Shown piece after piece: positions 3,533 through 64,000 of a DNA stretch of 64,000 bases. Position 1 is the stretch's first letter, and every line of letters begins with the position of its first letter. Under the pieces are notes generated by a model. That model made no database searches, was not told the DNA's origin, and saw nothing but the letters and a program-made list of their open reading frames with translations. This DNA is from Chitinophagaceae bacterium (lineage in GTDB: Bacteria; Bacteroidota; Bacteroidia; Chitinophagales; Chitinophagaceae): NCBI GenBank assembly GCA_947447825.1, contig CANFLL010000001.1, positions 62,001 to 126,000 of the forward strand, given 5' to 3'. The translations under genes were made by a program, and so were the position numbers.

Positions 3533-5476
3533 TTATCCTCCAAGGTATTTATAATTCTTAAACACAATTTTTAAATCCATCCAAAAGTCATAATTCTTTG
3601 CATATTGAATGTTTAAATGATGTAATGCTTCCTTATTTAATGCAGGTGCATTGCCATTTGGAAAACCATAACAAGTAAGGATTCCTTTTTTTATGGTAGG
3701 TAAATAAATCTCTTCTTTAGTATATCCCACCCATGTAGCCTGATTGATTAATACTTTTAAAATATTTACAGAAAGAGAACCACTTTTTCTAACAAGTATC
3801 AATTGAAAAGGAAATGTAACCATTAAATAAAACGAAAAAACAATATCAAATACACGTTTCATCCGTTTGTGATATGCTTCATTAATTCTGTAGAAACCTT
3901 CATCAGTTAACGTTTCTCCTGCTGTTGCTTTGCTGTCGCTACCCACAATACTTTTGGTGTTACTACCAATAAATCGGTAGCTAATGCTTCGTGGAAGCGT
4001 TTGAACCAGTTGAATGTTTAAATGATTAGTTAGCGCACCTTCGCAAAATATTACTTCCCTAATGTTCAATCTTACTAAAAATTCTTTCAAATTTTTAATA
4101 TCTCCCACAGCATTTTCAGTTTCTTCATCCACTTTTATCCTTCCTAAAAGTCTCTCTTCAAGACCTGCCTGCTTAAAAAGGTTTTGAACAACCTGATATT
4201 CACTATTCGATCCCACTACGGCTGTTTGTTGAAACCTATATTCTTCATTGCTTGGTTCTAAAAATTTTAATTTGAATAAGATCCACCTGAAAAGTGTAAT
4301 TGCTATAACGGCAACTACGCCCCCTACAATCATTACAGCACGAGAAAACCAAAAACTTTCGGGCAAAACGCCATAAACAGCCATCATCACAATAATACCT
4401 GCACTGCCAGATGCAAAAGTTTTTGAAGGCTTTTCCGGACTATCATACATGCCAGTTAAGGCGCCAGAAAAAAGAAAAATAACTGTGAACGAAAGAAACA
4501 TCAACGGGAAATTATCGATAGCAAAACCTTTTCCGTCTCGCACCCATCTTATCCATTCATTTTTTGTTTCTAATAGTGAAATGAAAATAATTGCTGCATC
4601 TATCAGTGGTAATCCTATTCTTACAACCAGCGATTTTATGAGTGATAATAGAGCCCTGAAAAATATTGCACATTGAATTAAGGTGGTAAAAACCCTTGCG
4701 CTATTGCCAGAATAATGTTTTTTAACAAAGATGCTCATGGCACTATAAAACATCTTTACGTAGTTGAGGCTTCCTTTTTTGGTGCTCTCCCCTTTAAAAT
4801 GCAAAATGGTGCTATCGGCAAAATAATAATTATTGTATCCTAATTGCTGAATCCTATAGCTAAGGTCTATGTCTTCTCCATACATAAAAAAGGCTTCATC
4901 AAAACCTTTAGTTACATGTAGCTTATCTTTTCTAACCATCATAAATGCACCAGCCAATACATCTACTTTATGGTTTTCAAATTCGCTCAAATAGCCTAAA
5001 GAATACTGATTAAACAATTTTGAGCTAGGGAAAATATCCGACAATCCAGTTAATTTAAAAAAAGAGGCAATTGGCGAAGGAAATCCCCTTTTGCTTTCAG
5101 GCAAAAATGTACCACTTCCGTCAATCATTTTTATGCCCAATGCACCACAATCTTCATGGCTTTCAAAGAAGGCAATACACTTTTCTAAGCAGTCTTCAGG
5201 AATAATCGTGTCTGGGTTTAAGTATAAAATATAATCCCCCGAACATTCATTTAAAACTTGATTATTTGCCTTTGCAAAGCCAATATTTTCTTCATTTACT
5301 ACATATTGAACAAAGGGAAATTTTGGTTTTAGGTATGCAATACTATCATCCGATGAGTTGTTATCTACCACAAAAACTTGCGCATCAATATTGACCATAG
5401 CTTTCTCCACAGAACGCAAGCATTGCTCGAGAAAGTATTTTACGTTGTAATTAACAATAATAATTGATAGATGCAT
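3533..5476 (-). CDS. composite GT2 glycosyltransferase with sugar-transferase-like tail
   Basis: 647 residues in three parts. Residues 1 to about 240 are a GT-A family 2 domain (SIIIVNYNVKYFLEQC start, VVDNNSSDD, YLNPDT as DxD-type site, and EDIDLSYRIQQLGY late motif). The middle, about 255-400, has several hydrophobic helices. The last 230 residues look like the regulatory half of membrane sugar-phosphate transferases: a nucleotide-binding-like fold (TAVVGSNSEYQVVQ) and then KRMKRVFDIVFSFYLM, like the helix that opens the bacterial sugar transferase domain. The catalytic block that should follow is not recognisable. It may be a real fusion with an inactive tail. Role: surface glycan assembly, acceptor unknown. 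Confidence 0.8.
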   Translation of the reverse strand: MHLSIIIVNYNVKYFLEQCLRSVEKAMVNIDAQVFVVDNNSSDDSIAYLKPKFPFVQYVVNEENIGFAKANNQVLNECSGDYILYLNPDTIIPEDCLEKCIAFFESHEDCGALGIKMIDGSGTFLPESKRGFPSPIASFFKLTGLSDIFPSSKLFNQYSLGYLSEFENHKVDVLAGAFMMVRKDKLHVTKGFDEAFFMYGEDIDLSYRIQQLGYNNYYFADSTILHFKGESTKKGSLNYVKMFYSAMSIFVKKHYSGNSARVFTTLIQCAIFFRALLSLIKSLVVRIGLPLIDAAIIFISLLETKNEWIRWVRDGKGFAIDNFPLMFLSFTVIFLFSGALTGMYDSPEKPSKTFASGSAGIIVMMAVYGVLPESFWFSRAVMIVGGVVAVIAITLFRWILFKLKFLEPSNEEYRFQQTAVVGSNSEYQVVQNLFKQAGLEERLLGRIKVDEETENAVGDIKNLKEFLVRLNIREVIFCEGALTNHLNIQLVQTLPRSISYRFIGSNTKSIVGSDSKATAGETLTDEGFYRINEAYHKRMKRVFDIVFSFYLMVTFPFQLILVRKSGSLSVNILKVLINQATWVGYTKEEIYLPTIKKGILTCYGFPNGNAPALNKEALHHLNIQYAKNYDFWMDLKIVFKNYKYLGG

Positions 5477-32485: not shown

Positions 32486-33517
32486 CTATAGCTGATCTAT
32501 AATCCACTTTTTGGATAAAAGTATAACAAACGAAAAAAGAGTAAAACAAAATGCAAAAAAGAGTCCGAAAAGCAGTCTTCCCTTTTTTTCATTTTTTAAT
32601 GGAAGTTTAGGTCTATCTATGATTTGTATCAAAGGTGTTTCTTTTCTTAGGCTAAGTTTGGAAATTTCTAAATTTTTCAACAATTCGGTATAAAGTACTG
32701 AATTTACTTGCATCTCAATTTGTCTCTTTTGTCCGTTAGTTTTTAATGATTGCTTGACAGGATTTACGTTCAAATCATTGATAGAGGCCACTTCATTGAT
32801 ATTGCCAAATAAAATAGATTTCACTGAATCAGTTTGTCTTTGTAAAATGTTAACATTGTCTTGATTTTTTTTAGTCTTGTAACTAGTGTAAAATGTTATT
32901 GCATTTTCAGCGAGTTTCTCTGCAAAAGCCTTTGCAAAAAACATATCATTATCAATCATTCTGATGTAAATTAGGTCTAACTTTTTATCAACTTTATCAA
33001 TATCTAATTGACTAGAAATAATTCCATCAGCAATAGAATTAAAAATGCTATCTCTTTTTCTATTGAAATCTTTTTTTTCAAGTATTGAAATAAAATTAAT
33101 TTTACTCAGTGCAGAATCATTTTTCCACTTTGAATTTATTTTATGATTAGAAACATATTGATCAATAAAAAGTATATTGTTGTTAAGTGGAGAAAGCAAT
33201 GTTTTATCAATTAACGACCTACTTTTTAGAAGTGAAACGAGGTTATCTTCTGTAAAAATACTATTTGAACCTCCGCCTAAGTCTATACCAAATTGAGATG
33301 CAATACTCGCATATCCACCTAATCCTGAACTACCTTCACTTTCAGTGACAAATGTTAGCTGTGCTGTATATTTAGAATCTTGTTTCCAAGCATAAATAAT
33401 ACCTAATCCAGTTCCTAACAATGAAAAAATTAAAATGACTTTCCATTGACTAATTAAATAATCAACATTACTTTTAATTTTTTTCACAAAGTCTACTAAG
33501 CTTATTTGTGAACTCAT
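32486..33517 (-). CDS. Wzz-type chain-length determinant protein
   Basis: 343 residues. An N-terminal Wzz segment with a membrane helix (VILIFSLLGTGLGIIYAWK, about 28-46), a periplasmic helical domain with a long coiled region, the conserved pre-helix stretch LIQIIDRPKLPLKNEKKGR near 300 and a second membrane helix at the C-terminus. There is no attached tyrosine kinase domain. It sets the length of a Wzx/Wzy-made glycan. The next gene upstream, 3 bases away, is the Wza-like exporter. Confidence 0.87.
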   Translation of the reverse strand: MSSQISLVDFVKKIKSNVDYLISQWKVILIFSLLGTGLGIIYAWKQDSKYTAQLTFVTESEGSSGLGGYASIASQFGIDLGGGSNSIFTEDNLVSLLKSRSLIDKTLLSPLNNNILFIDQYVSNHKINSKWKNDSALSKINFISILEKKDFNRKRDSIFNSIADGIISSQLDIDKVDKKLDLIYIRMIDNDMFFAKAFAEKLAENAITFYTSYKTKKNQDNVNILQRQTDSVKSILFGNINEVASINDLNVNPVKQSLKTNGQKRQIEMQVNSVLYTELLKNLEISKLSLRKETPLIQIIDRPKLPLKNEKKGRLLFGLFFAFCFTLFSFVILLSKKWIIDQL

Positions 33518-33520
33518 AAA

Positions 33521-35977
33521 TTATCTTCTTAAAATTGCTATCACCACCCCTGCCAAAGAAGCTACACCACTAGTTAGCCCAATTATTTCTGCCACTGACA
33601 TGCCCCCGGCTTTCTTTTCAGGAGTTTTAGGTACTAAAATTTCAGAACCTGGCGTAATTGTCGGGTATCTTTTGAAAATCAAAAATCGTTTTATCCGGCT
33701 TGCTCCACCATTTGGATATAGAACATAAACCTTTCTTTCACGGGCATTGTCGGTGTATCCTCCTGCCTTATCTATATAATAATTTAAGGAAGAACCTCTA
33801 CTATAAACAACCTCGGAAGGAACCATAACTTCTCCATTCACTTTAACCTCATTCTTTTGTTTAGGGATACTCAAAACATCGCCTTCTTGCAAAAGAATAT
33901 CATCTATGCTATTGGGATTACCTAAAATTTTACTCAAATTAAGCCCCACTTTTATGGTTGGTTTAGTATAACTTTCTGACAAAGTACTGCTAGTATCCTT
34001 TAACTCTTTTTGAATCTTCTTTACTTTTTCTTCAGCCCCATTATTACCTGTCTGAATAGTGCTATTTACTCTTATCAAATTGGCCGCTTCTATAAAAGCT
34101 TCTCCAGTAAGCCCTCCAGCTCTTTTAAGCAAACTACTTATCCGTTCATCTTTGTTTGCCAAAACATAGTTTCCAGGATACTTTACTTCTCCCTCCACCT
34201 TTACACTTATTTGCTCCTTATAATCTTTTTTCTTCCTCACCGAAATAACATCCCAAGGTTGTAATTCAACCTCTTTTCCTAATAATTTCAAATCTTTTTC
34301 GGCAGAAACATTAATGATGGTCGCCATCAAATTTTTGTTGCTATTGTCATCAGATTTTACCCTTCTAGCTATTTCTATATTTCCCATTGAAGCAGCATCT
34401 GTAACACCTTCTGCTAAAAAAAGCAAATCACTCAACGTAATTCCTTGAAAATATGGAAAGATACCAGGCTTTTTTACTTCCCCTTCTAATGTTAGTGTGT
34501 ATTTTTCTTTGTAGGCAGCCGCTTCTCCAATTACAATTTCATCATTTTTCTGCAACACAATATCAGCCGCTTTTCTAGAAATAATTGCTTGAAAATCGAA
34601 TGGAATAATTTTTTTAGTCAAGTCTGAATCATTTGTTCGTACCAAAACACCTCTCTCTTTAAAAGCATCATCTTTCAATCCTTCAGCCTTGGTAATTAAT
34701 CTAGACAATGTGAACCCATTCTCTAGTTCATACGTGCCTGGGCGATAAACTGCACCAGAAATGGTTACCATATTGTCATATCTATTCAATATTTTAGCTA
34801 CAACAATAGAATCTCCCTTTTGAGGATTGTACGTTGAAAAACTAGTTTTCACCACATCTTTAATTCTTCTTTCCTTATCTGTAACTTGTTTAACTTGAAC
34901 GGAGGCCGTGTAAGCTTCATTAGAAAACCCTCCGGAAAAATCAATTAATTTATCAAGATTGTCAGTAGGCAAAATTTCAAAAATACCTTCTCTTTTAACC
35001 TCTCCTAATAAACTAACCTGCACTTTTGCTGAAGGAATGCGAACCACATCCTGATCTGTTAAACGTACATTGTTCGTTTGGTCGCCCTTTAATAAAAAGT
35101 CGTAAGCATCAAGTTTAGTAATTACTTTGTTATTTCTAATCAACTCAATTTGTCTGAATGACCCTTTGTTTGTTGGACCACCAGCCGCATACAAAGCATT
35201 AAACAAAGTTGATAAGGAGGATAAATTATAAGTCCCTGGTTTTTTTGCTTCTCCAATTATTGTTACCTTGATGGTTCTGATTTTTCCAATGCTTACCACA
35301 AGCTCGGTTTGACTATTAGCCATGCTGGCATAACCACTATGAATCATTTTAGCTTTTATCCTTTTGGTGGCTTGTTCAATGGTTAGACCAACAACTGGAA
35401 CTATTCCTATAAATGGAATATTGATACTTCCTTCTGGCGAAACAGTTAACCTGTAATTGGCTTCTTGATAACCAAAAACATCAAGAATCAATTCATCATC
35501 GGGTCCTAATGAATAGTTTTTTGGCGTTGGTATTCTAGTATTAGGTTCAAAAATGGGCGTCGGATTATCAAATAATTCACTACCAAAAACAGTGCTTCTA
35601 ACTTCTTTTTCCTTTGCTCTATTTAAATCTTTAGAAAGTACATCACTACTATCCGTATCAATCAGTCTGCTAATTGCCCTACTTGTAACCGACGTGTTTT
35701 TATTATTATTACTTGAAGAAGCCAATCTAGCTCGCAATTTATTTAATTCGGAAGAAGGCAACCCTCTCTGTAATGCTAGCTGTTCTGCCTGTGTTTGAGA
35801 TAGGCCGTTTTGCTGCAACTGTTGTTTGAATTTTGATATTTCATCATCAGAAAGATCATCAACTTTTACAGCACTTAGATCTTTATTTTTTAATAGATCC
35901 TGTGCTTTGGCACCTACCGAAGCAATCAAAAGAAAGAAACATACAAATAATATTCTATTCAAAAAGCCTTTAATCAT
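33521..35977 (-). CDS. SLBB-domain polysaccharide export protein (Wza-like)
   Basis: 818 residues, longer than E. coli Wza (379). Signal peptide 1-26 (ends GAKAQ). A charged helical stretch follows, with the Poly_export domain from about 150 (YSLGPDDELILDVFGYQE). A row of SLBB domains follows, opening with KVTIIGEAKKPGTYNL, VQVSLLGEVKREGIFEI, MVTISGAVYRPGTYEL, LEGEVKKPGIFPY, VEGEVKYPGNYVL and VNGEVMVPSEVVY. A single helix sits at the very end (VASLAGVVIAILRR). It forms the periplasm-to-surface channel. Confidence 0.92.
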   Translation of the reverse strand: MIKGFLNRILFVCFFLLIASVGAKAQDLLKNKDLSAVKVDDLSDDEISKFKQQLQQNGLSQTQAEQLALQRGLPSSELNKLRARLASSSNNNKNTSVTSRAISRLIDTDSSDVLSKDLNRAKEKEVRSTVFGSELFDNPTPIFEPNTRIPTPKNYSLGPDDELILDVFGYQEANYRLTVSPEGSINIPFIGIVPVVGLTIEQATKRIKAKMIHSGYASMANSQTELVVSIGKIRTIKVTIIGEAKKPGTYNLSSLSTLFNALYAAGGPTNKGSFRQIELIRNNKVITKLDAYDFLLKGDQTNNVRLTDQDVVRIPSAKVQVSLLGEVKREGIFEILPTDNLDKLIDFSGGFSNEAYTASVQVKQVTDKERRIKDVVKTSFSTYNPQKGDSIVVAKILNRYDNMVTISGAVYRPGTYELENGFTLSRLITKAEGLKDDAFKERGVLVRTNDSDLTKKIIPFDFQAIISRKAADIVLQKNDEIVIGEAAAYKEKYTLTLEGEVKKPGIFPYFQGITLSDLLFLAEGVTDAASMGNIEIARRVKSDDNSNKNLMATIINVSAEKDLKLLGKEVELQPWDVISVRKKKDYKEQISVKVEGEVKYPGNYVLANKDERISSLLKRAGGLTGEAFIEAANLIRVNSTIQTGNNGAEEKVKKIQKELKDTSSTLSESYTKPTIKVGLNLSKILGNPNSIDDILLQEGDVLSIPKQKNEVKVNGEVMVPSEVVYSRGSSLNYYIDKAGGYTDNARERKVYVLYPNGGASRIKRFLIFKRYPTITPGSEILVPKTPEKKAGGMSVAEIIGLTSGVASLAGVVIAILRR

Positions 35978-58671: not shown

Positions 58672-59268
58672 TTATCTTTTTGTCACAATTTGATCAACTC
58701 TATTCTTGATTACCACACCAGATGGAATACTATTATAAATCAAATTGTTTGCCCCAATAACTACATTATCACCAATTGTTACATTATTTAGTATAGTTAC
58801 ATTGGCACCTACCCAACAATTTCTACCTATAACTATTTTACCTATACTACATCCTTCCTGTTGAATTATTTTATTAACATCATTGTACAAATGATTATGA
58901 TCATAGAGTTTAACTCCTTCTCCAAAAATTGTATAATCGCCAACTTCTATTTCACCAAGACAATTTATAGAGCAATATCTATTAAAGAAAACATATTTCC
59001 CCAGTTTTAATTTTGCATTAGGATAAACCATTACGTTACAAAAGTCCCTAAAAATTACATCTTTTTCAATTTCTATATGACTTCCAGAATGAATTTCTAA
59101 GTGACTTTTAATTATATCGAATTTAAAATTCTCTTTCACTTTGAATGTATATCCGGAACAATTTCTTATTTTTAAAAGTAAAGAGCTTTTTATTCTTCTA
59201 TCCACTTTAGTATATATGAACAAAAGAATTTTATCAGTTAATGACATAGTCCCATTTATTAATTGCAA
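58672..59268 (-). CDS. hexapeptide-repeat acyltransferase
   Basis: Up to 198 residues; the start is either 59268 or, more likely, the ATG at 59247 (MSLTDKILLFIY), since both lie inside the end of the ABC gene. Left-handed beta-helix repeats run through IEVGDYTIFGEGVKLYDHNH, where the His is a likely catalytic base, IGKIVIGRNCWVGANVTILN and VTIGDNVVIGANNLIY. It would O- or N-acetylate a sugar of the exported glycan. Confidence 0.83.
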   Translation of the reverse strand: MQLINGTMSLTDKILLFIYTKVDRRIKSSLLLKIRNCSGYTFKVKENFKFDIIKSHLEIHSGSHIEIEKDVIFRDFCNVMVYPNAKLKLGKYVFFNRYCSINCLGEIEVGDYTIFGEGVKLYDHNHLYNDVNKIIQQEGCSIGKIVIGRNCWVGANVTILNNVTIGDNVVIGANNLIYNSIPSGVVIKNRVDQIVTKR

Positions 59269-60493
59269 CCAACAATCCTGATCTAATCCCTGTATTTATG
59301 AAGTTGTTGTTCTCAATTGAAAAAACCAACTCAACACTGTCAAATAATTCTGTATTTATAACCCCCATTAAAAATTTAATCTTGTAGTTTCCGGTATTAA
59401 GATTATATAATTCTAAAGGAACTTTTACCCGATAATGACCTTCAAGTTTGGTTGATAATAGTTCCTCATTAACATCAGTGTCTGCACTTGAGTAAATATG
59501 ATTTTCAAGCATATCAGTTAAAAGCATACCTACATTAAAGTTTTTAAACTGATTGTGCAGTACATAGCTAATCTCTATGTATGGTTTAGTTCCAGTTAAA
59601 AAATTATTTGATTCAATACCATCTTCATTAAAAAATGCAATTGTATTGAATTGTCCAGAAGCATTATTTTTACTTTCAATTCGTTTGTATGAAGCCCCAA
59701 TATGTGAATCACTTATATATGACTCTACAACATCTTTAATATTTGATTGACTACGTATTTGACCATTTTTCAAAAGAATTCCAATTGTGCAAAGCTCTTT
59801 TACAGCCGCCATATTATGGCTTACAAACAATACAGTTCTACCTTCGCCCTTACTCACTTCCCCCATTTTGCCTAGACACTTCTTCTGAAACTCTGCATCG
59901 CCTACTGCTAATACTTCATCTACAATCAATATCTCACTTTCTAGGTGTGCCGCAACAGCAAAAGCCAAGCGTACATACATCCCACTACTATATCTTTTAA
60001 CAGGGGTGTCTATATAGCGCTCCACCCCCGAAAAATCGACAATGGCATCAAAATGTTTCTTAATCTCATGCTTGCGCATTCCTAAAATGGCTCCATTTAA
60101 AAATATATTCTCTCTACCCGTTAACTCAGGATGAAAACCTGTTCCTACTTCTAGTAAGCTTGCTATGCGCCCTTTTACTTTAATGTTGCCAGTGGTGGGC
60201 GTGGTTACCCGGCTCAACACTTTTAATAAAGTACTTTTTCCTGCACCATTTTTACCAATGATACCAACAGCATCACCTTGGTTTATTTCGAAGTTAATAT
60301 CTTTCAAACTCCAAACTATATTGCTAGTTCCTTTGGTGCTACGGTCATTCGTTTCTCCTAGCTTTAAAAATGGATCTTCTTTTCCTCTAAGCAATGCCCA
60401 CCATCGCTCAATGTCTCTAGAGATAGTACCTGTACTAAACTCGCCTAACTGGTAAGCTTTTCCAATGTTCTCTGCTTTTATTGCTATGCTCAT
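59234..60493 (-). CDS. polysaccharide ABC transporter ATP-binding protein (Wzt-like)
   Basis: 419 residues. Walker A GIIGKNGAGKST at about 77-88, the signature KRYSSGMYVRLAFAVA near 165, Walker B ILIVDEVLAVGD near 188 and SHNMAAVKELC near 225. The last 150 residues form a strand-rich Wzt-C-like domain that in known systems reads the end modification of the glycan. It partners the permease 310 bases upstream. Its stop overlaps the acetyltransferase start. Confidence 0.93.
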   Translation of the reverse strand: MSIAIKAENIGKAYQLGEFSTGTISRDIERWWALLRGKEDPFLKLGETNDRSTKGTSNIVWSLKDINFEINQGDAVGIIGKNGAGKSTLLKVLSRVTTPTTGNIKVKGRIASLLEVGTGFHPELTGRENIFLNGAILGMRKHEIKKHFDAIVDFSGVERYIDTPVKRYSSGMYVRLAFAVAAHLESEILIVDEVLAVGDAEFQKKCLGKMGEVSKGEGRTVLFVSHNMAAVKELCTIGILLKNGQIRSQSNIKDVVESYISDSHIGASYKRIESKNNASGQFNTIAFFNEDGIESNNFLTGTKPYIEISYVLHNQFKNFNVGMLLTDMLENHIYSSADTDVNEELLSTKLEGHYRVKVPLELYNLNTGNYKIKFLMGVINTELFDSVELVFSIENNNFINTGIRSGLLVAINKWDYVIN

Positions 60494-60803: not shown

Positions 60804-61661
60804 CTATACGGTATCCACAAAAGTTTTCTCAACCTTATTAAAGACAACCAATCCAATTAAAAAAAGTACTAAACTAGCAATAACACTATATAGAAATGCA
60901 CCTATAAAAAATTCTCCTTTACCTGTAAAACCATATCTAAATGTTTCAATCAGTCCACTTAAAGGATTTAGACTAATGTAAACCCTATATTTTGCTGGTG
61001 CAGCAGAAAGCGGATAGATAATTGGGGTAGCATACATTAATAATTGTACACCGAATGTTACTAGAAAAACTAAGTCTCGGTATTTGGTTGTAAGTGCTGT
61101 TATAATAAGTCCTATTCCTAAACCAAGAATAGCCATTAAAGCTAGTATTAAAGGAAAAAGAAGTGCAAAAAGATTTGGGTGAATGCTATTTCCTTTAATG
61201 GAAAAATAGATCATCATTAAAATGAACAATACAAACTGAACCCCAAACTTTATAAGATTCGAAAACACTATGCTCAATGGCATAATTAATCTTGGAAAAT
61301 AAACTTTACCAAATATGCCAGCATTATCACGAAAAACAGTAGAAGTTTTATTTAAACAATCAGAAAAATAATTCCAAGCAATGTTTCCAGTAAGGTAAAA
61401 TAAAGGAGCTGGCACATCATCAGTAGAAATTTTAGCCAATCTACTAAATATTATGGTAAAAGTTATGGTGGTAAAAATTGGTTGAATAAAAAACCAAAGT
61501 GGACCAAAAATGGTTTGTTTGTAAAATGAAACAAAATCCCGGCGCACCAATAACCACAATAAATCACGGTAATTCCAAACATCTTTTAGATGAAGGTCAA
61601 AAAGATTATCGTGTGGTTTTATCTCCATATCCCACTGTTGGGATGTTGCAGTTATGCTCAT
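60804..61661 (-). CDS. polysaccharide ABC transporter permease (Wzm-like)
   Basis: 285 residues with about six membrane helices, ABC-2 type. DLLWLLVRRDFVSFYKQTIF and GPLWFFIQPIFTTITFTII near residues 33-70 are the usual N-terminal interface helix and first helix of Wzm/TagG permeases; LNPLSGLIETFRYGF near 230 is the other typical stretch. It moves a finished lipid-linked polymer across the inner membrane. Confidence 0.92.
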   Translation of the reverse strand: MSITATSQQWDMEIKPHDNLFDLHLKDVWNYRDLLWLLVRRDFVSFYKQTIFGPLWFFIQPIFTTITFTIIFSRLAKISTDDVPAPLFYLTGNIAWNYFSDCLNKTSTVFRDNAGIFGKVYFPRLIMPLSIVFSNLIKFGVQFVLFILMMIYFSIKGNSIHPNLFALLFPLILALMAILGLGIGLIITALTTKYRDLVFLVTFGVQLLMYATPIIYPLSAAPAKYRVYISLNPLSGLIETFRYGFTGKGEFFIGAFLYSVIASLVLFLIGLVVFNKVEKTFVDTV

Positions 61662-61662
61662 A

Positions 61663-64000
61663 TTAATTTATCAATTGATTTTTAAGATTTTGGCAAAAAA
61701 CTGGAAATCCAAAATATCCATCCACCCTTTTCTGTAATTCTACTTTTTCGGATGAAGTATAACTATCTCCCGTAAGAACTTGAAGTATGGTAGCAATCAT
61801 TTCATCTTCATTATCAGGGTTTACTAACATGCCCAATTCTCCATTTTTCAAAGCATCAACACTTCCGTCCTGATTACCTGCAATTACTGGCAATCCACAA
61901 GCCATTGCTTCTATAAATACAATACCAAATCCTTCCTTTTTGCTTGGCATCACAAACACATCTGCTAACTGATAATGATCTGTCACTTCTTCCTCCGCAA
62001 TAAATCCTGCTAAAAAAACGTGGTTTTCTAGTTTATATAATTGAATCAAACTTTCTAACCTGTTTTTTTCTAAATCATCTGGTTTTCCAGCTATCAAATA
62101 TTTTAAATTAGGGTATTTTCTAATCACCTTTGGCAAAACCGCAATTACCTTATCATATCCTTTATATTTTTCGGTATAAGAGAGTCTTGTTAAAGTGAGA
62201 ATTATTTTATCGTTTTTATCTATTCGATACCTTTCTAATAAATAATCAGGCTTCCTAAATTGGTGAGGATAATTGAAAAAAGGATCAATAGTGTTATGAA
62301 ATATTTCAATCTTGTTAGGGTTAACGTTATTAACTTCAATTAATTTTTGCTTAGTAAAATTACTAACTGCTAATATTTTATCACACTTATTTAAAATTTG
62401 TTTTTTAAATCCAGTCAGCTCATCCCATACCTCAATGCCATGGGCAACCAAAAATACTTTGGTTGATGGATTTAAAAACTTTATTAATAAGCCGAACATT
62501 GCCAAGTTAATATGTCCTAGCACAACTTGCTGGTATTTATCAGCACTTATTAATTCTTTCCAAACAAATGATACTTTATCTTTCTGATATAGTCTGTAGT
62601 TACTAGGAACAAAGTAATCAGCATTTACTTCTTTATCGTACATTGATGCTGCATCTGCAATTATTAAAGCCTCTTTCTCTAATCCTGAAAAAGCATGCAG
62701 AAATGCTCGATTAAACTTTTCAATTCCACCCAAAGTAGCAAAAGTACTAGTGGTATAAAAACAAATCCTATCAAATTTTTTTTGCAAGAAGATCAGTTTT
62801 TTAGTGTCGCAGGTGGCTAAAACAAACGTCCAATACTTACTCCAATGGATGAATGATTGATTAAGTTGTTTATATTTTTTTTCGAATACTTCATTTCTAC
62901 TTAAAGGAACTACATGATTTATCCAACGGGTAAACGGGAATGTAAATCCTTGTTTTTTTCTATTCCATATTGCAGTTGGAAGAATATCTTTAAACGCTTC
63001 TATTAATAGATATTTAGGTCTTTTGTTTAATGAGAACTTAATTTGAGGTGCAATTGTGTTACAAGCCTCAATTACTTTCTTATCTAAAAATGGAACCCGA
63101 ACTTCAATTCCATGCCACATACTCATATAGTCAGTATCTTTCAGTAATTGATTTTGCATGTATAAATGCTGTTCTAAATGAGCAGCTTCCTGAATTTCAG
63201 ATTTGCTGTTTAAAGAAGCCACAGTCACTTGCTTTAGAACCTCATTTACTTTTTGAGAACTAATACCTAATAAAAGTGAAATTTTTCTTGGGTTATATAT
63301 TCCTCTATAAAACAAATACTTATTTAAAAGCGTTTTGTTTTGGAGATATGAAATGCGTTTAATTTTATCGTTTGGCAAGTAGTTAGTTAACCCCAACATA
63401 AAGGACGGCAGAAGTGTCAATTTTTTAAGTAGTTGACTTCGCTTTGCAGAATCATATCCTCCCAAAAGCTCATCAGCACCTAACCCACTTAATACAGCAG
63501 TTAATCCATATTGTTTGGCAAACTTACAGATGAAGTAGGAATTTATGCCATCAATGGAAGGTTGATCCATTGCCTCCATAATTTGCTCAAATTCATCCCG
63601 AAACATTTGATTTGTTACTATGAAAGAGTGGTGTTCAACATTTGTTTGTTCAACTACCATCTTTTGATAAACCTCTTCTGAAAAATCTTGTTCTTCAAAA
63701 ACTATAGAAAGTGTTTTTATTTTTTTATCAGAAAATTTTGAAGCCAATATTGTAATAATGCTTGAATCTATTCCTCCACTTAAAAAAATACCAATTGGGG
63801 CATCCGAGATAAGGTGACGTTCTATAGCATTTTCAACATTGGTTCGAATCAAATCAATGGCAACCTTGCTAGAAGTTACTGAACTAGTGTAAGTTGATAC
63901 AAAAAACGGAGAAACTTCAATTGACAGATTCTTTAAACTTATTACTGCAAAGCAGCCTTTTGGAAGTAATTGTACGTCGTGTAAAGTAGTAAATGGTTCT
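61663..64000 (-). CDS. asparagine synthase / GT4 fusion protein, 5' end outside window
   Basis: The frame stays open to the edge, so the N-terminus is missing. The first part matches the asparagine synthetase B C-terminal domain: FLSGGIDSSIITILA (PP-loop), LSGLGADELLGGYD and RKKQGFTFPFTRW. A short linker is followed in the same frame by a GT4 domain: FDRICFYTTSTFATLGGIEK, ILTLTRLSYTEKYKGYDKVI and the donor site MPSKKEGFGIVFIEAM. Upstream codons to 64000 (for example QLLPKGCFAVISLKNLSIEV) continue the glutaminase side. It may amidate a uronic acid in a glycan while also adding a sugar. Confidence 0.85.
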   Translation of the reverse strand, partial: EPFTTLHDVQLLPKGCFAVISLKNLSIEVSPFFVSTYTSSVTSSKVAIDLIRTNVENAIERHLISDAPIGIFLSGGIDSSIITILASKFSDKKIKTLSIVFEEQDFSEEVYQKMVVEQTNVEHHSFIVTNQMFRDEFEQIMEAMDQPSIDGINSYFICKFAKQYGLTAVLSGLGADELLGGYDSAKRSQLLKKLTLLPSFMLGLTNYLPNDKIKRISYLQNKTLLNKYLFYRGIYNPRKISLLLGISSQKVNEVLKQVTVASLNSKSEIQEAAHLEQHLYMQNQLLKDTDYMSMWHGIEVRVPFLDKKVIEACNTIAPQIKFSLNKRPKYLLIEAFKDILPTAIWNRKKQGFTFPFTRWINHVVPLSRNEVFEKKYKQLNQSFIHWSKYWTFVLATCDTKKLIFLQKKFDRICFYTTSTFATLGGIEKFNRAFLHAFSGLEKEALIIADAASMYDKEVNADYFVPSNYRLYQKDKVSFVWKELISADKYQQVVLGHINLAMFGLLIKFLNPSTKVFLVAHGIEVWDELTGFKKQILNKCDKILAVSNFTKQKLIEVNNVNPNKIEIFHNTIDPFFNYPHQFRKPDYLLERYRIDKNDKIILTLTRLSYTEKYKGYDKVIAVLPKVIRKYPNLKYLIAGKPDDLEKNRLESLIQLYKLENHVFLAGFIAEEEVTDHYQLADVFVMPSKKEGFGIVFIEAMACGLPVIAGNQDGSVDALKNGELGMLVNPDNEDEMIATILQVLTGDSYTSSEKVELQKRVDGYFGFPVFCQNLKNQLIN

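Follow-up and report, generated by a model that had tools for sequence, protein, structure and literature searches.

Organisation of the locus

The window analysed here, the whole stretch of 64,000 nucleotides, comes from an uncultured member of the Chitinophagaceae (bases 62001-126000 of contig C1; G000:C1:62001-126000), and at its end an open frame on the minus strand (61663-64000) is present and unbroken. A sequence-only reading of the window had described this frame as an intact PP-loop amidotransferase domain running without interruption into a full GT4 glycosyltransferase with its E-x7-E site, and had expected an N-terminal glutaminase domain beyond position 64000. Reading the gene past the window edge bore this out: the frame continues to an ATG start, the complete AsnB-GT4 gene occupies positions 61663-64569 on the minus strand (L003:2663-5569), and the encoded protein of 968 amino acids begins with MCRIAG and carries the glutaminase nucleophile as Cys2. 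Pfam, TIGR01536 and motif conservation agree on the two other domains, and the protein thus comprises a complete glutaminase, a complete AsnB synthetase domain, a linker of 13 residues and a complete GT4 domain.

The part of the gene past the window edge encodes residues 1-190 including the Cys2 glutaminase (64001-64569, minus strand), while the AsnB-like half within the window covers residues 191-585 (62815-64000, minus), the latter being the point up to which separate homologues align. GATase_7 was found at residues 48-167, far above its Pfam cut-off, the PP-loop ATP pyrophosphatase domain Asn_synthase (PF00733) at residues 241-551 (62917-63849, minus) with 230 bits against a cut-off of 21, and TIGR01536 was matched over its full profile (1-517). 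The PP-loop itself reads SGGIDSS (residues 264-270, 63760-63780, minus), and a second motif, SGLGADE (residues 361-367, 63469-63489, minus), places Leu363 at the site of an essential Glu when aligned to 1CT9 and 6GQ3. After the linker TCDTKKLIFLQKK (residues 586-598, 62776-62814, minus), the GT4 half (residues 599-968, 61666-62775, minus) starts at the same point at which a separate gene of about 370 codons begins in relatives; it contains the N-terminal GT4 domain (residues 614-763), Glycos_transf_1 (residues 780-935, 129.7 bits against a cut-off of 26.4) and the E-x7-E motif EGFGIVFIE (residues 879-887, 61909-61935, minus).

Next downstream of the fusion lie wzm (60804-61661, minus), encoding the permease of an ABC exporter, a homologue of which matches galactan and capsule permease models, and wzt (59234-60493, minus), encoding its ATPase with a C-terminal Wzt_C domain of the glycan-binding type. 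This adjoining pair marks the locus as one of ABC-transporter-dependent export, from which it departs in that Wza and a Wzc-type tyrosine autokinase are encoded in the same block, the order being wza-wzc-asnB-GT4-wzm-wzt. The surrounding cluster reads, by inspection, as having rmlA, rmlB, rmlC, gmd and fcl (the last two also identified by model in a relative). The same cluster contains a second polysaccharide export pair (32486-35977), namely a protein of 818 residues (SLBB/Poly_export) and one of 343 residues that resembles a chain-length regulator. At 3533-5476 the window encodes a 647-aa protein in which an N-terminal GT2 domain is followed by a long C-terminal stretch matched by no Pfam model.

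The fusion in related genomes

A protein search of 59 related genomes recovered the same fusion, over residues 1-967 or 1-968 and with 68-78% identity, from five other genomes of the window's genus; in a sixth the gene is divided between two contig ends, and in a seventh the contig ends after residue 279, residues 1-279 being present. Every complete copy in the genus is 968 amino acids long. The fusion was also found in the named strains Mucilaginibacter rivuli HMF5004, M. myungsuensis KCTC 22746 and Segetibacter sp. 3557_3.

That the frame might arise from an assembly or sequencing error, or might yield two proteins by way of an internal start, draws on a run of eight A residues at the junction and on a TTG at residue 595 that could start the GT4 in the window's genome. 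However, six further genomes of the genus share the frame, and the seven fused genus sequences show no indel at the junction, which rules out the error that, according to the sequence-only reading, might have hidden a stop between two genes. Across the junction (residues 570-612) no ATG, GTG or TTG in any frame could start a near-full GT4 in four of the seven fused genes, only an in-frame TTG or ATG being on offer in the remaining three, and base changes fall chiefly at third codon positions, so that codon periodicity is kept. Together with the fused genes of Mucilaginibacter and Segetibacter strains this leaves the two-protein or artefact explanation a negligible chance; genome comparison confirms the AsnB-GT4 fusion as one real, evolutionarily conserved protein. 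Open reading frames of 1025-1067 amino acids among other AsnB matches were considered as further fusions and rejected, since the five inspected turned out to be ordinary AsnB proteins of about 600-670 residues followed by separate genes.

Fused and separate states of the pair

In a survey of 394 genomes, AsnB and GT4 were found side by side in many genera, either as separate genes, as separate genes that share a frame and are parted by a single stop, or fused, and the adjacent pair is conserved across Chitinophagaceae and Sphingobacteriaceae. A scan of named genomes yielded 80 GT4 loci; pooled with others, and with duplicates included, there are 113, of which 32 are fused, 68 have a separate asnB upstream and 13 have no detected asnB. 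Among the 100 loci with both genes, fused and separate states therefore stand at 32 to 68 (duplicates again included). The separate genes are tightly packed, 63 of the 68 pairs being spaced by 50 nt or less and many having overlapping stop and start codons, and 13 of them lie in the same frame within 60 nt, so that the loss of one stop would fuse them. Relatives with separate genes, which the sequence-only reading would have held against the fusion, do occur, but as an alternative state of the same pair, and are no evidence against it.

In two species of the window's own genus the GT4 is encoded separately: in one (G011) it sits between wzc and wzm, no asnB being present, and in the other (G008) it adjoins wzm and its upstream side ends at a contig end 337 nt away. 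Since 13 of 113 loci, these two species included, have the GT4 but no detected AsnB, amidation would not be required for the GT4 in all species. Some loci deviate from the common arrangement. One genome (G016, L025:9070-10077) has a gene for a 335-aa protein without Pfam match between separate asnB and GT4 genes, and another (G022, L026:1607-6476) has a separate asnB followed by a weakly transglutaminase-like gene, the GT4 and, further on, a carbamoyltransferase. Near-identical loci (L072 and L076) are found in a metagenome-assembled genome labelled Azovibrio restrictus, Pseudomonadota, and in an uncultured Bacteroides bin; in the former, the contig is probably of Bacteroidota origin and mis-binned.

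In the tree built from 84 distinct AsnB sequences, counted unrooted, so that fusions and fissions are not separable, the fused label costs seven changes, at least five of which are forced by well-supported branches. Constraining all fused rows to one clade lowers the likelihood by 463 units, and a single origin of the fusion without reversals is rejected by the AU test (p-AU 9.6e-38). The GT4 tree gives 16 changes for three states, a count on which we do not rely given its long branches and weak deep forks. The window's gene falls into a group of 12 fused proteins together with Segetibacter and Mucilaginibacter rivuli; the fused gene of the latter (L067:4231-7137) groups with the Chitinophagaceae fusions, far from other Mucilaginibacter, which suggests horizontal transfer.

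Identities of the AsnB and GT4 parts correlate with r = 0.89 over 3486 pairs, a value that includes shared genome ancestry. The tight pairing throughout the family, the repeated change between fused and separate states and this co-varying divergence are good evidence that AsnB and GT4 are functionally coupled, and they lend support to the coupling of sugar addition to AsnB activity that had been proposed from the window.

The pair is also tied to its surroundings. Of 59 loci with full flanks, in which neighbours were named by model searches, 45 have wza, 47 wzc, 43 wzm and 45 wzt. Where wzm is present, slightly more than half of the loci have the permease starting no further than 30 nt from the end of the GT4. 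Every other glycosyltransferase family is a less frequent neighbour of the export block. By these neighbour counts the GT4 and, in most species, the AsnB are part of a constant export block. Of 80 loci, 33 also have a gene for an UpxY-type antiterminator close to the pair.

The GT4 half and the structure model

Both Glu residues of the E-x7-E motif are present in all 83 homologues that have the stretch (83 of 84). The half shares the GT-B fold, this motif and the conserved Arg and Lys of TLTRL...KGYD with the retaining GT4 glycosyltransferases BshA, PimB' and HepE, from which it differs in being fused to an amidotransferase. An AlphaFold2 model of the 968-aa orthologue from locus L045, for which 77 sequences were aligned, has high confidence over its whole length (pLDDT 93.6, pTM 0.88). 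In Foldseek searches its GT4 half matches HepE, BshA and PimB' and its AsnB half TsnB9, AsnB and ASNS, and among the matches listed there is no solved chain whose description combines the two activities, amidotransferase and glycosyltransferase.

Proposed function of the fusion

In the AsnB half, Cys2 is found in all 83 rows covering the start, Arg50, Asn76, Glu78 and Asp101 are conserved in 84 of 84 homologues, and the SGG, D and following S of the PP-loop are likewise invariant (84 of 84). As the residues for glutamine hydrolysis and for binding the pyrophosphate of ATP are conserved throughout, an active amidotransferase is likely. We consider it probable that the fusion is a bifunctional enzyme of a system for surface-polysaccharide export, whose AsnB half would amidate a sugar carboxyl group and whose GT4 half would transfer or extend the sugar before export. 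We infer amidation, a sugar carboxylate as its substrate and the following order of steps: the N-terminal AsnB half would draw ammonia from glutamine and, with activation by ATP, spend it on amidating a carboxyl group of a sugar nucleotide or of the growing glycan, and the GT4 half would transfer the amidated sugar or add the next sugar to it. The fusion would tie modification to transfer, and the chain would carry its amide before export by Wzm/Wzt and Wza/Wzc.

Deletion of WbpS in Porphyromonas gingivalis abolishes the uronamide (PMC7468200), and when wbpS is lost in Helicobacter pullorum, the glycan retains the un-amidated sugar and is not extended by the next glycosyltransferase (PMC6025236). 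In Escherichia coli O121 the amidotransferase WbqG is encoded directly before an overlapping GT4 gene. By analogy with these precedents, a tie between amidation and the glycosyltransferase would fit. The sequence of WbqG was read from NZ_CP022407, where it was identified as the asnB gene of the O-antigen cluster, and is the one sequence read among the genetically supported proteins; wbqG overlaps the GT4 gene by 22 bp, and the gene order matches that of the Bacteroidota pair (L160:14315-17319; NZ_CP022407 386314-389318). Unlike the present gene, it is not fused, and its cluster has wzx/wzy instead of a Wzm/Wzt ABC exporter; the O121 GT4 is distant from ours (22% identity over 170 aa).

Quite possibly, the reaction is more specifically the conversion of a UDP-hexuronic acid, or of a uronic residue in the glycan, into a uronamide that the GT4 transfers, which would be a special case of the bifunctional enzyme proposed above. 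The genetically supported AsnB-like proteins of glycan clusters make uronamides (PMC7468200, PMC6025236), and WbpS, WbqG and PGN_1234 (Pseudomonas aeruginosa O6, E. coli O121 and P. gingivalis; TIGR03108-like) share with the fusion the AsnB-type architecture of GATase and PP-loop domains and the setting in a surface-glycan cluster. The identity to WbqG is 30% over residues 1-550. Furthermore, the window's genome encodes two UDP-sugar dehydrogenases, both on contig C19, so that UDP-uronates can probably be made. However, there is no uronate dehydrogenase in the window's own cluster, and none of the 51 pair loci with full flanks has a gene for a UDP-uronate dehydrogenase (ugd/wbpA) within 6 kb, which sets the Bacteroidota pair apart from the WbpS/WbqG/PGN_1234 group. 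The fusion scores 428 bits with TIGR01536 against 363 with TIGR03108 (cut-off 816.9), whereas WbqG shows the reverse order, 528 with TIGR03108 against 460 with TIGR01536; as WbqG itself remains below the TIGR03108 cut-off of 816.9, only the order of the scores counts. Position 363 is Asp in WbqG (SGDAGDE) and hydrophobic here (SG[LIV]GxDE; Leu in 57, Ile in 17 and Val in 10 of the 84 homologues). Differing in best model and in this residue, the present protein and WbqG would be analogues and not members of one subfamily. Of the amidation of uronic acids suggested by the sequence-only reading, the conserved catalytic residues are in favour; position 363, the order of the TIGR scores and the absence of a dehydrogenase near the pair speak against it, and the likeness to WbpS and WbqG is one of analogy.

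More speculatively, and in our view rather unlikely, the protein might represent a distinct AsnB subfamily of Chitinophagaceae and Sphingobacteriaceae that forms an amide, by amidation or otherwise, on a carboxylate that is non-uronate or glycan-bound and passes it to the fused or partner GT4, so that one invariant residue of otherwise variable polysaccharides would serve as a tag needed by the Wza/Wzc/Wzm/Wzt exporter.

It is unlikely that the AsnB half makes a different amide, joining a sugar carboxylate to an amine or forming a lactam or hydroxamate in the manner of its distant relatives beta-lactam synthetase, the lasso-peptide cyclases and TsnB9. The hydroxyamidotransferase TsnB9 is its best solved relative by sequence as well as by fold, and the substrate-side residue is hydrophobic in the whole subfamily; the fully conserved glutaminase (Cys2 and the glutamine-binding residues), on the other hand, points to ammonia as the nucleophile. 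Beta-lactam synthetase is devoid of the glutaminase cysteine.

An ordinary asparagine synthetase, fused by chance to a glycosyltransferase, is very improbable. The protein does score above the TIGR01536 cut-off and shares with asparagine synthetase B (E. coli AsnB, human ASNS) the two-domain architecture, the glutaminase residues, the PP-loop and the fold (1CT9), and the window's genome has no AsnA and only two AsnB-family genes, the other of which (L001, G000:C6:15840-16937) carries Gln at the Glu348 position (DGQGADE). That position, Glu348 in E. coli AsnB (SGEGSDE) and Glu364 in human ASNS, is essential in the human enzyme, where E364A and E364Q are inactive with aspartate (PMC6748925), but all 84 homologues have Leu, Ile or Val there, which makes an asparagine synthetase unlikely. 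The extra C-terminal GT4 also distinguishes the protein, and the gene context is another one: the gene lies in a polysaccharide export block and is absent at that place in sister species.

Significance

In the open-access literature searched, which is not the whole literature, neither an AsnB-GT4 fusion was described nor a relevant paper found on an asparagine synthase in polysaccharide clusters of Chitinophaga or Mucilaginibacter. Bacterial glycan clusters commonly contain AsnB-like genes, and it is often not known whether the enzymes act on the free sugar nucleotide or on the growing chain, and which glycosyltransferase uses what they make. A fusion that has switched with the separate state several times directly names the partner glycosyltransferase and lets a single protein serve to test the question, and the residue change of the subfamily points to a specific position, open to mutation, that may determine the choice of substrate.
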